DNA of 64,000 nt from Leptolyngbya subtilissima AS-A7 (GTDB lineage: Bacteria; Cyanobacteriota; Cyanobacteriia; Phormidesmidales; Phormidesmidaceae): assembly GCF_039962255.1 (NCBI RefSeq), contig NZ_JAMPKY010000005.1, positions 310,001-374,000 on the forward strand, written 5' to 3'. Position 1 is the first letter of the stretch; each line of letters opens with the position of its first letter. Both the position numbers and the translations under genes were made by a program. Below are positions 10,951 to 54,183 of the stretch, one piece after another. A model generated the notes under the pieces. It made no database searches, was not told the origin of the DNA, and was given only the letters and a program-made list of their open reading frames with translations.

Positions 10951-10976
10951 TTTGTGAGGGCGATCGCTCTCACAAA
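10951..10976. terminator. HIP1-centred palindrome between convergent genes
   Basis: A 26-base inverted repeat with the HIP1 octamer at its centre; one position is a G:T pair. It lies between the murG stop and the stop codon of the convergent DUF4112 gene, and abuts the latter. It could serve as a bidirectional transcription stop, though T-runs are short. Confidence 0.5.
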
Positions 10977-32063: not shown

Positions 32064-32104
32064 AGCGATCGCGGCCTAGGAGCTTCCTTTGAGCCGCGAT
32101 CGCT
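32064..32104. terminator. Hairpin made of two HIP1 sites between convergent genes
   Basis: AGCGATCGCGGC at 32064-32075 is the exact reverse complement of 32093-32104, giving a 12-bp stem with a 17-base loop. Each arm contains a complete HIP1 octamer. It lies between the stops of DUF1997 and the convergent DUF4079 gene. It is a plausible bidirectional terminator, although T-runs are absent. Confidence 0.55.
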
Positions 32105-37081: not shown

Positions 37082-37960
37082 GTGGTGTCAACAACAATTC
37101 GACTGTTGCAACTGGGGGGCTGTCTAGCCGTGCTTGGGGCTGGGCAGAGCGCCATGGCCCTTGAGGAGCGAGCCAATGTCGCTGAAGAGGTTGCGCCCAC
37201 AACGCCTAGCGTTGAAACTCTCCACAACTCGCCAGCCTCTGGCTTAGCCATTTGCCCTGAAACCGTCGAGTTTGTAAAATCTTGTACGGTTTCCTTTGAG
37301 GCAACGCTGTCAACGGTTAGTGCTATCCCAGAGACGTTAGCCCTTGAGCCCGAGGCAGCGGCCCCTCCCCTTGACCTCGACCCGGCTGTGATCGAAGGCA
37401 GCCCGACGCTCCAGCGCTGGCTAGAGGATGTGCCCGATGTAGCCAACGAGATTCGTCATCGGCCCAGCTTTCGCACTAGGCTGCGGGTCGGCTACGCCCA
37501 GTTTCCCTCTACAGGGCAGGTTGGTGGCTTTGGGGTAGCGGTAGAAGACGTCTTTGTGCCGGGCACAGGCCTCTCCGCCAGTATTGACTACAGCCGTAGC
37601 TGGAATGGCCAGCGCGAATCTTACGGGGGTGAGGCGCGTTATTATCTGCTGCCTCTAGGTGGCTATTTTAATATTGCGCCCACGGTGGGTTATCGATCTC
37701 TCAGCACTCCGGCCTACCAAACAGATGGGCTAGATGTGGGCCTGCGCCTGATGCTAGTGCCGTCGCGGGGCGGTGGAGCTGACTTGGCTCTAAGCCAGCG
37801 ATGGGTGGCACCGGGCAGCGAGGAGGAAGTAGGGATTACGAGCCTGGCGATCGGTTATGCCGTAACCCGGCAGCTGCGGCTGGGCACTGATTTTCAGCGG
37901 CAAAACTCCCGTTTTGGCCAAGACAGCCGCGTAGGAGTTTCTTTAGAACTGCTGCTGTAG
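37082..37960 (+). CDS. Exported beta-barrel-like outer-membrane protein
   Basis: A 292-residue protein with a GTG start at 37082 and a signal-like N-terminus (TIRLLQLGGCLAVLGAGQSA, cleavage near AMALEE). Residues 30-115 are Pro/Ala/Glu-rich. The C-terminal 170 residues show alternating amphipathic strands (FRTRLRVGYAQFPSTGQVGG, LSASIDYSRSWNGQRESYGG, YFNIAPTVGYRSLSTPA, GYAVTRQLRLGTDFQRQNS) and end in VGVSLELLL, as in outer-membrane barrels with about 8 strands. No specific porin family is recognised. It converges with dnaK, and a strong palindrome separates them. Confidence 0.78.
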   Translation: MVSTTIRLLQLGGCLAVLGAGQSAMALEERANVAEEVAPTTPSVETLHNSPASGLAICPETVEFVKSCTVSFEATLSTVSAIPETLALEPEAAAPPLDLDPAVIEGSPTLQRWLEDVPDVANEIRHRPSFRTRLRVGYAQFPSTGQVGGFGVAVEDVFVPGTGLSASIDYSRSWNGQRESYGGEARYYLLPLGGYFNIAPTVGYRSLSTPAYQTDGLDVGLRLMLVPSRGGGADLALSQRWVAPGSEEEVGITSLAIGYAVTRQLRLGTDFQRQNSRFGQDSRVGVSLELLL

Positions 37961-38029
37961 TCGTTGTTGTCGCAGAGCGTTACTTCTGGTTGTTTACAAA
38001 GCCCTCAAGGTGCGCTGGTTTAAAGCAAA

Positions 38030-38061
38030 AAAAGGTGGAGAGCGATCGCTCTCCACCTTTT
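38030..38061. terminator. Perfect 32-base HIP1-centred bidirectional terminator
   Basis: A perfect palindrome of 32 bases with GCGATCGC at its centre. It starts AAAAGGTGGAGA and ends TCTCCACCTTTT. On the dnaK strand it is followed by further T residues (seven T in all), and on the other strand by TTTT. It lies between the stops of the convergent outer-membrane protein and dnaK genes, so it should end both transcripts. Confidence 0.85.
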
Positions 38062-38103
38062 AGCTAGCCGAAGCAAGGCTGTGGGCTAGGGCAGGGTGCC
38101 CGG

Positions 38104-40011
38104 TTAGTTCGAGCCCGGTTCAGAGAACTCGGCATCGATCACATCATCGCCACCGGAGCCATCGCCAGGGGTAGCGTCGGGGCCAGGGGCTGCGCCAGCC
38201 GCATCGTCACCGGCCTGTTGATACAGGTTGGTGCTGATGCCATAGAGGGTCTGTTGCAGTTCGCCCGTGAGGGTTTTGATGGTGTCAAAGTCCTCGGCTT
38301 CAATGGCGGTTCTGAGGGCCTTGATTTGCTCCTCTGCTTTTTCCTTATCAGCGGCGGGCACTTTGTCGCCCATATCAGCCAGCTGCTTCTCAGCCTGGTA
38401 GGAGAGTGAGTCAGCCTGGTTCTTGAGGTCGATGCGCTCGCGACGCTCTTTGTCAGCGGCAGAGTTGGCTTCGGCATCCTTCACCATGCGCTCGATCTCA
38501 GACTCATCCAGCCTTGAGGCACCGGAGATGGTGATGGTCTGCTCTTTGCCGGTGCCCTTGTCTTTGGCGGTGACATTGAGAATGCCGTTGGCATCGATGT
38601 CAAAGATCACCTCGATCTGGGGCACGCCACGGGGCGCAGGGGGAATGCCAGAGAGCTGGAAGGTACCAAGGCTCTTGTTGTCAGTGGCCATTTCGCGCTC
38701 GCCCTGGAGCACTTTGATCTCCACGTTGGTTTGCCCGTCTTGGGCGGTGGAGAACACCTCCGACTTCTTGGTGGGAATGGTGGTGTTGCGGGGGATGAGT
38801 TTGGTCATCACGCCGCCCAGGGTTTCCACACCGAGAGACAGGGGGGTAACATCGAGCAGCAGGATGTCTTTGACTTCCCCAGCCAGCACGCCACCTTGAA
38901 TAGCAGCACCTACGGCCACGACCTCGTCAGGGTTGACGGTTTCGTTGGGCTCTTTGTCGAGGGTGCGCTTGACTACGTCCTTGATGGCAGGAATGCGGGT
39001 GGAACCGCCCACCAGCACCACTTCGTCAATGGCGGTCTTGGCAATCTTGGCATCCTTAAGAGCCTGCTCGACGGGGATGCGGCAGCGATCGATCAGATCG
39101 GCGCACAGCTCCTCAAACTTGGCTCGAGTGAGGGTCATTTCCAGGTGCTTGGGGCCATCCTGGGTCGCGGTGATGAAGGGCAGGTTGATTTCAGCCTGGG
39201 TAACGCTTGACAGCTCAATTTTGGCTTTTTCAGCAGCTTCAGTCAGGCGCTGCAGGGCCTGCTTGTCTTTGCGCAGCTCGATGCCTTCCATCTTTTGGAA
39301 CTCACCGGCTAGGTAGTCAACGATCTTCTTATCGAAGTCGTCGCCGCCCAGGTGGGTGTCGCCCGAGGTAGCCAGCACTTCAAATACACCGTCGCCCACT
39401 TCGAGAATGGAGACGTCGAAGGTACCACCGCCAAGGTCGAAGACCAGGATGGTTTCGTTGCTCTTGCGATCGAGACCGTAGGCCAGCGAAGCGGCAGTCG
39501 GCTCGTTGATGATGCGCAGTACCTCTAGACCGGCAATTTTACCGGCGTCTTTAGTAGCTTGGCGCTGGGAGTCGTTGAAGTAGGCCGGCACGGTGATCAC
39601 GGCCTGGGTGACTTTTTCACCCAGATACTTGCCGGCATCGTCGGCCAGTTTGCGCAGAATTTGAGCCGAAATTTCTTCGGGTGAAAATTGCTGGCCTGCT
39701 TGAGGGCAGTCAATTTTGACGTTGTTGCCTACGTTCATCACCTTGTAGGCAACTTCGGTGGACTCGGTGGTGACTTCGTCAAAGCGACGACCGATGAAGC
39801 GCTTGACCGAGTAAAAGGTGTTCTCGGTATTCATGACCGCTTGGCGCTTGGCGATTTGGCCAACGAGGCGATCGCCATTCTTAGCGTAAGCGACGACCGA
39901 GGGGGTAGTGCGAAAGCCTTCGGCGTTAGCGATAACAGTGGGCTTTCCCCCTTCCATAACAGCAACCACAGAGTTAGTGGTGCCTAGGTCGATTCCAACT
40001 ACTTTACCCAT
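38104..40011 (-). CDS. dnaK: Chaperone DnaK (Hsp70)
   Basis: A 635-residue Hsp70. The nucleotide-binding domain starts [20 protein letters not shown] and has [17 protein letters not shown] and [14 protein letters not shown]. The substrate-binding domain includes [20 protein letters not shown], and the lid ends in a Gly/Asp-rich tail (GDDVIDAEF). It folds and holds unfolded proteins with DnaJ and GrpE. Cyanobacteria carry several dnaK paralogues; the canonical motifs and the DVIDAEF end suggest the main stress-responsive type (DnaK2-like), which is inference. No dnaJ or grpE is adjacent. No CIRCE element is seen upstream. Confidence 0.97.
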
Positions 40012-49654: not shown

Positions 49655-49982
49655 GCTGAAATCGCCAGCTTCGATAGCTGGGTTATTGAGTAGGTTGACT
49701 ACTTGGTCCGGTATCACTCAGTAGAGACTTGGGCTAACTTAATCGCTCATTAACCCCAGCGATCGCCCCCACAACCATGATGAAAGTGAACCAACCCTGC
49801 ATTTCTGCAATGCGGTTCGCACCTGACTCACATCTAGGCTCAGCGATCGCTGGGTCTTTTTTATGCTTAAAACTGCTTGAAATCACAGATCTGGGTTTCA
49901 CCTCCAGGCGGCATCAGCCGCACGACGTTTCCTTATCTCCCTTAAGATCAAGTCTTCTAGACCTAATTCGCGCCCGCTGTTA
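49655..49982. other. Intergenic region with a possible small RNA
   Basis: These 328 bases have no supported gene. A HIP1-based hairpin with a T-run at 49836-49862 looks like a transcript end. The stretch before it has no credible frame and could encode a small RNA or be a long 3'-UTR of the 42-residue ORF. Confidence 0.4.
49836..49862 (+). terminator. HIP1-centred hairpin with T-run
   Basis: AGGCTCAGCGA (49836-49846) pairs with TCGCTGGGTCT (49847-49857), two G:T pairs included, with GATC at the tip, then further T residues to 49862. It is oriented as a rightward intrinsic terminator. Confidence 0.6.
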
Positions 49983-54092: not shown

Positions 54093-54131
54093 AGCTGAGT
54101 AGCCGGAGTTCTCGGCCAGAAGTCAAAAAAC

Positions 54132-54175
54132 AGGCAAGAAAGGGGGAGACAGAGCTGTCTCCCCCTTTCTTGCCT
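54132..54175. terminator. 21-bp inverted repeat between secreted protein gene and thyX
   Basis: A 21-bp perfect stem with only two unpaired central bases, arms at 54132-54152 and 54155-54175. On the thyX strand a TGTTTTTT run follows within three bases, so it is mainly the thyX-operon terminator; it may also stop the convergent secreted-protein transcript. Confidence 0.85.
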
Positions 54176-54183
54176 CATGGACT

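Follow-up and report, generated by a model that had tools for sequence, protein, structure and literature searches.

A probable dnaK terminator hairpin in Leptolyngbya subtilissima with the HIP1 octamer as an optional apex

Results

The dnaK locus carries a perfect palindrome centred on HIP1

The locus lies in a 64,000-nucleotide stretch of the Leptolyngbya subtilissima AS-A7 genome (hereafter the window, meaning the whole stretch that was analysed), where dnaK on the minus strand converges with a gene on the plus strand. The window contains 84 copies of HIP1 (GCGATCGC), an octamer that is abundant in cyanobacteria and has been linked to GATC/CGATCG methyltransferases (PMC4390886; this and the other cited articles were available in part, and statements on them refer to those parts). 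Pfam matches were obtained for HSP70, MurG-type glycosyltransferase domains, DUF4112, DUF1997 and DUF4079, in agreement with the gene names given by an earlier sequence-only reading of this DNA, except that its 'outer-membrane protein' next to dnaK had no Pfam match. Among the matches listed, the nearest named dnaK is that of Nodosilinea sp. LEGE 07088, which is 97% identical. The features of the locus are the following:

37082-37960, plus strand: convergent neighbour of dnaK, the 'outer-membrane protein' above
38030-38061, minus strand: probable dnaK terminator hairpin, a perfect palindrome (sequence, terminator scan, fold, covariation)
38063-38076, minus strand: TTGCTTCGGCTAGC, a GC-UYCG-GC mini-hairpin in the dnaK 3' UTR, directly upstream of the terminator (pattern search)
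38104-40011, minus strand: dnaK (HSP70 by Pfam), the gene that the terminator would serve

The hairpin comprises two 16-base arms that together form a perfect palindrome over 32 bases, as the sequence-only reading had described, with HIP1 at its apex (38042-38049). In our sample of the genome (1.664 Mb including the window, 29% of 5.66 Mb), it is the only one of 1,983 HIP1 sites with an exact arm longer than 11. In the predicted minus-strand RNA, a 14-bp stem carries a GAUC loop, and the hairpin continues into a U7 tail that derives from the A7 run at 38027-38033. The energy of this minus-strand hairpin is -27.4 kcal/mol, compared with a shuffle mean of -12.6, and the fold stands far apart from shuffled sequences on both strands (z of -6.0 on the plus and -6.6 on the minus strand, none of 200 shuffles being equally good). 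The site combines several features of an intrinsic terminator, namely a stable G+C-rich hairpin, an adjoining U-tract on the minus strand, a position 3' of the gene and compensatory changes, which are described below. On the plus strand, the tail is limited to U4 (38058-38061), so that any ending of the neighbour's transcript at this site would be secondary. A many-copy repeat was considered and rejected, the 131 bases around the site matching their own genome only there (and as their own reverse complement).

The hairpin is kept across the family while its apex changes

A search of 40 genomes of the family yielded 30 dnaK loci, including that of the window, and three named relatives brought the total to 33. 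These three were taken from 24 further cyanobacterial loci, of which two, L115 and L117, seem to duplicate L095 and L104, and the rest, mostly from distant picocyanobacteria, were left out of the scan. The scan itself was permissive (230 bases, with loops of up to 23). A hairpin followed by a U-tract was found 3' of dnaK in all 33 loci scanned, the window's own included. The commonest stem is GCGGATGG...CCATCCGC, while GGTGGAGA...TCTCCACC occurs in five loci of the window's genus, again counting its own. We then aligned 26 of the 33 loci (alignment A1, without L094, L095, L098, L108, L109, L111 and L112). Nine of the 17 predicted pairs have changed on both sides with pairing kept, and all nine lie within the terminator stem.

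The apex is HIP1 in 16 of the 33 loci, 15 of them called by script and one (L092) assigned by eye, the script having picked an upstream hairpin there. The remaining apices read ATAAAT, CAACTG, TTTGA or GTTAAC, or hold long insertions. On the dnaK tree, the HIP1 state of the apex changed at least five times, all five changes being forced by starred branches. Since some relatives have HIP1 at this apex and others do not, it is probably not the motif as such that ends dnaK.

The surroundings of the hairpin are also variable. A match to the neighbour at 37082-37960 was present within about 1.5 kb beyond dnaK in six of the 30 family loci, all of the same genus, and was not found within that distance in the other 24. 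Furthermore, the longest downstream frame, which serves as a rough guide to gene direction, is co-directional with dnaK in 12 of the 30 loci, including four with a HIP1 apex (L097, L099, L101 and L102). Both observations indicate that the signal travels with dnaK, independent of this neighbour.

Two loci, L094 and L107, have extra HIP1-centred hairpins nearer the dnaK stop than the conserved terminator, and that of L094 has its own T6.

Other HIP1 hairpins in the window differ from one another

The sequence-only reading had placed HIP1 at the core of long inverted repeats at three convergent junctions, that of dnaK among them, and in a fourth hairpin with a T-run. By our own gene calls, the window contains 11 convergent spacers of 20-600 bases, three of which hold HIP1 inverted repeats. 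The sites other than dnaK are the following, each compared with relatives of the same genus at the six of 11 loci that were aligned by script:

10951-10976, unstranded: HIP1-centred inverted repeat in the murG/DUF4112 spacer (sequence, relatives, scan, fold)
32064-32104, unstranded: hairpin with HIP1 copies as its two arms, in the DUF1997/DUF4079 spacer (sequence, relatives, scan, fold)
49836-49862, plus strand: putative HIP1-centred terminator hairpin in the plus/plus spacer 49655-49982 (sequence, scan, relatives, fold)

The repeat at 10951-10976 is centred on HIP1 as had been claimed, but imperfect, with one G/T position adjoining the octamer. Its outer bases, TTT...AAA, run the opposite way to those of a U-tract, and the terminator scan called it on neither strand. 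Among the relatives, L194 and L195 retain it in altered form, L196, L198 and L199 lack it, and L200 has an inserted stretch.

At 32064-32104, HIP1 is not the core. Its two copies (32065-32072 and 32096-32103) are instead the arms of the hairpin, which has no tail on the plus strand and UUUGUGUUG on the minus strand, where the scan called it as a terminator. The paired arms are kept in all six relatives. Both HIP1 copies are intact in five of them, and a change in L206 is compensated. L206-L208 share the minus tail UUUGUGU, which differs in L211 and L212; L212 has a U-rich plus tail instead.

The fourth hairpin, at 49836-49862, has a 9-bp HIP1-centred stem followed by the expected T-run, a T6 at 49857-49862, so that a hairpin and a U-tract stand in sense position. 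According to our gene calls, its spacer is not convergent, lying between two plus-strand genes. The plus-strand fold has a z of -2.4, with 5 of 200 shuffles as good. Four of six relatives keep HIP1, the T-run and a re-paired stem (for example GGCTC/GGGTC, GACCC/GGGTC or GGCCC/GGGCC), and L227 keeps the stem and T6 with GGCCAACGCC as its apex in place of HIP1; L226 does not align at this site. According to these alignments, the hairpins at 49836, 32064 and 10951 are under some constraint, which speaks in favour of the sequence-only reading.

A candidate unannotated micro-ORF, MQGWFTFIMVVGAIAGVNERLS, was noticed at 49734-49802 on the minus strand, with codons that contain the HIP1 copy at 49759. 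It is nearly identical in L218, L219 and L221, has diverged in L223 and L227, and was not recovered from L220 or L222 when the same pattern was searched for.

Another convergent end of the window, at 54093-54183, carries a longer perfect palindrome that was called as a terminator on both strands and lacks HIP1. With -51.2 kcal/mol over the spacer and a z of -7.6, it exceeds every other convergent hairpin called in the window in stability, so HIP1 is not needed for long palindromes at convergent ends.

HIP1 hairpins rise at convergent ends together with other hairpins

Counts were made on the sample of the genome described above and on two genomes from a second genus (g2) of the same family, G001 and G033, at 400 kb each. 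Genes were called by a codon-based script that ignored calls with a score below 12 or a length below 150 bases, and their starts are approximate. HIP1 has a density of about 1.2 per kb in the window's genome, and its number in convergent spacers was in line with that expected from coding density (40 observed versus 37.7 expected in the window's genome, 15 versus 16.9 in G001 and 14 versus 21.1 in G033). The enrichment that would follow from the sequence-only reading was therefore absent from the 29% sample and both relatives. Exact extension of the palindrome, considered as a trait of convergent ends, was likewise rejected, with arms of at least 7 at only 1 of 43 convergent and 41 of 1687 coding HIP1 sites; the corresponding numbers are 10 of 160 for tandem and 4 of 81 for divergent sites.

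The scan for a hairpin with a U-tail discriminates between the kinds of spacer, calling 107 of 580 convergent, 108 of 1002 tandem sense, 40 of 1002 tandem antisense and 28 of 636 divergent strands. Restricted to spacers of 20-600 bases, it omits 48 of the 338 convergent spacers and keeps the best hairpin per strand. In this form, it found HIP1 in 9 of the 107 convergent terminators and in none of the 76 from the window's genome outside the window. A fuller count included long spacers and any HIP1 hairpin, which adds the spacer C2:288447-289226 of the window's genome and the dnaK terminator of G001. As hairpins are counted per strand, a two-sided hairpin counts twice.

Pooled over the three genomes, this fuller count gave 12 HIP1 versus 102 other hairpins on 596 convergent strands, 2 versus 133 on 1065 tandem sense strands and 6 versus 89 on 1787 control positions. 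Per strand, tailed HIP1 hairpins are more frequent at convergent ends than among the controls (p = 0.0002), also without the window (9 of 574, p = 0.003), as would be expected if HIP1 were systematically the core of bidirectional terminators at such ends. However, the frequency of other hairpins increases as well (odds ratio 3.9), and the HIP1 share among convergent hairpins is no different from that of the controls (p = 0.33, or 9 versus 100 and p = 0.79 without the window). The same holds for all sense strands taken together, with 14 HIP1 versus 235 other hairpins (p = 0.80).

The two genera differ in these counts. In the window's genome, convergent strands show 1 HIP1 hairpin versus 78 others outside the window and 3 versus 2 inside it, the three representing two hairpins. 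The window is thus an unusual draw, that is, an unusual cluster of HIP1 hairpins within this genome. In G001 and G033, on the other hand, convergent strands carry 8 versus 22, from six distinct HIP1 hairpins of which one is that of dnaK. The p value of this difference is 0.005 against the pooled controls but 0.09 against the controls of the same two genomes (2 versus 24). The counts are suggestive of an over-representation of HIP1 among terminators in G001 and G033 and, at p = 0.09, lean towards a general role at convergent ends in this second genus. In the 40 genomes of the family taken together, HIP1 sites flanked by A- and T-runs showed no bias in polarity (585 in terminator polarity versus 681 reversed, p = 0.26, with overlapping matches included for runs longer than 4).

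Two further hairpins of the window's genome are formed by paired HIP1 copies. One, in the tandem spacer C2:368718-369033, was called as a terminator on both strands, and the other, in the long convergent spacer C2:288447-289226, has the plus tail UUUUAUU. The proposal that HIP1 hairpins are terminators is supported for some sites, where a hairpin in sense position resembles a terminator (dnaK, 49836, these two and the six of G001 and G033), and not supported as a general trait.

Long HIP1-centred stems are in weak excess

We also compared HIP1 with matched GCnnnnGC seeds. In tandem and convergent spacers, stems of at least 10 pairs were found at 16 of 340 HIP1 sites versus 30 of 1607 seeds (p = 0.005), an approximately twofold excess that becomes borderline without the window, from which the idea had come (13 of 330, p = 0.038), and without the dnaK site of G001 as well (12 of 329, p = 0.06). 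Thirteen of these 16 long stems are in tandem spacers, with no gathering near the upstream stop. Long HIP1-centred stems occur at only 1 of 136 sites in divergent spacers, and their frequency in coding sequence (48 of 2717, 1.8%) is like that of the matched coding seeds (332 of 21305, 1.6%), which indicates that hairpins in general do not attract HIP1. Close HIP1 pairs formed extended stems in 5 of 5 cases in convergent spacers versus 37 of 123 in coding sequence (p = 0.003), as well as in 3 of 7 cases in tandem spacers and 5 of 7 in divergent ones. From the long-stem excess, the G001 and G033 counts and the five convergent pairs, HIP1 may be somewhat favoured in hairpins, more so in some genera. 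We regard the long stems and pair counts as a lead and not as a result.

The longest HIP1-centred stem of the sample has 19 pairs and is found at position 24015 of C4, in a tandem spacer without a U-tract.

Discussion

The hairpin at 38030-38061 is very likely the Rho-independent terminator of dnaK, by its looks an old and otherwise ordinary one, with HIP1 as an optional apex and without a general role at convergent ends in this genome. We observed the structure of the hairpin, its conservation and covariation, the turnover of its apex and the absence of enrichment in the sample; from these sequence data, we infer termination at the hairpin, its efficiency and the route by which HIP1 arises there. 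In the dnaK transcript, up to 14 bp would pair to give a hairpin capped by a GAUC loop, and the transcription complex would be released at the U-tract next to it. Such a hairpin would be a family-wide feature of dnaK, HIP1 representing one of several apex sequences. The octamer probably arises at this apex by base substitution, since a GC-closed hairpin with a four-base loop is few changes away from an octamer that accumulates genome-wide. Robinson et al. in 1997 reportedly held, to go by their title, that HIP1 arises by substitution. It is also thought to form in place by mutation (PMC3025956). Across the family, dnaK offers one clean natural experiment, the terminator being retained whether or not HIP1 is present.

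Compared with canonical intrinsic terminators, only the sequence of the HIP1 apex or arm is peculiar here, and it is optional at dnaK and at 49836. In terms of the L and I forms treated for a cyanobacterium (PMC7406221), the hairpins at dnaK and 49836 are L-shaped and that at 10951 is I-shaped, while 32064 was called on the minus strand only. Rho is missing from S. elongatus and Synechocystis 6803, and stem-loops have been described at transcript ends (PMC3219970).

A different explanation is that hairpin apices favour the birth or retention of HIP1. Whatever makes the octamer abundant would have a stronger effect, or meet less opposition, at the loop of a hairpin already present, so that HIP1 hairpins would accumulate beside gene ends although termination would not need HIP1. 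The turnover of the dnaK apex, the twofold excess of long stems, the convergent HIP1 pairs and the hairpin counts of G001 and G033 all point this way. The numbers are small, however, the excess is borderline once the window is removed, and the divergent and coding sites show nothing of the kind, which leaves this explanation tentative and, in our judgement, rather unlikely. The same applies to its extension, by which terminator hairpins would be preferred birthplaces of HIP1. Spread of the octamer by base substitution would then be more active, or better tolerated, at hairpin loops beside gene ends, HIP1 would settle repeatedly at the apex of old terminators, and neighbouring copies would be kept when able to pair. 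In some genera, such as that of G001 and G033, HIP1 hairpins would account for a considerable part of the convergent terminators. If true, the birthplace reading would give HIP1 a mechanistic handle in the form of cruciform- or RNA-structure-linked mutation or repair, and the long-stem excess and second-genus counts provide a testable lead on its origin.

The general form of the sequence-only proposal, in which terminators acting in both directions where genes converge would systematically be built around HIP1, appears improbable. In its favour are the three window junctions, the higher per-strand frequency of tailed HIP1 hairpins at convergent ends and the 8 versus 22 hairpins of G001 and G033. 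Against it stand the parallel rise of other hairpins, the HIP1 density at expectation, the scarcity of HIP1 hairpins in the window's genome outside the window and on tandem sense strands, the lack of polarity bias and the HIP1-free palindrome at 54093-54183. In this genome, the data do not support a general role at convergent ends. What HIP1 does is an open question, to which a function in termination would have offered a new answer. That such a role is not usually assigned to HIP1 agrees with the literature as far as it was accessible to us, subscription journals being mostly outside its scope: no terminator role was seen described in the available parts.

Least probable is that the inverted repeats act as DNA (as a methyltransferase, repair or nucleoid protein site or a polymerase pause), with the terminator look as a by-product: the lack of a U-tract at 10951, the one-sided tail at 32064, the RNA polymerase ChIP peaks enriched at HIP1 in S. 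elongatus (though at only 41 of 7,402 sites; PMC3219970) and a report of Sll1130 binding HIP1 (cited in PMC6331805) would fit it, but the dnaK stem and U-tract are kept where HIP1 is lost, which fits an RNA and not a HIP1-binding site, and neither Sll1130 nor another factor was bound at a HIP1 site upstream of scpB according to the available part of PMC6331805. In the part of PMC3219970 available, the polymerase peaks at HIP1 and the transcript-end stem-loops are not linked to each other.

The nearest precedent for HIP1 hairpins, by analogy, is that of the DNA-uptake sequences, which are part of many terminators predicted for Neisseria and Pasteurellaceae; abundant motifs have been argued to ease the birth of hairpins (Kingsford 2007, PMC1852404). 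In both cases, an abundant repeat supplies ready-made inverted repeats, some of which would act as terminators, and the paired-HIP1 hairpins (32064, C2:368718-369033 and C2:288447-289226) resemble paired uptake sequences in their layout. The extent differs, uptake sequences accounting for about 55% of high-confidence terminators in Neisseria and 17-29% in Pasteurellaceae (PMC1852404), whereas HIP1 hairpins on sense strands are few and proportionate to controls, as given above. Unlike uptake sequences, HIP1 is itself palindromic and can form an apex alone. Other observations connect HIP1 with gene flanks and hairpin loops: a motif search of the regions up- and downstream of genes in PCC 7002 had it among its top hits and left it unexplained (PMC7406221), and the CGATCG core has been located in the loop of a hairpin formed by a CRISPR repeat (PMC6604393).

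Finally, the mini-hairpin at 38063-38076 is a conserved element of the dnaK 3' UTR. Its pattern, TTGCTYCGGCTAGC, gave 33 matches in 29 of the 40 family genomes, 27 of them adjoining dnaK, while the reversed pattern, used as a control, was found in six of the 40. Among 145 further genomes from the phylum, a sample rich in the small genomes of one family, it occurs in 5. An Rfam search of the window and five dnaK loci returned only two tRNAs and no match to the element. Judging from its pattern and position, the element could be regulatory or part of a small RNA derived from the dnaK 3' UTR.
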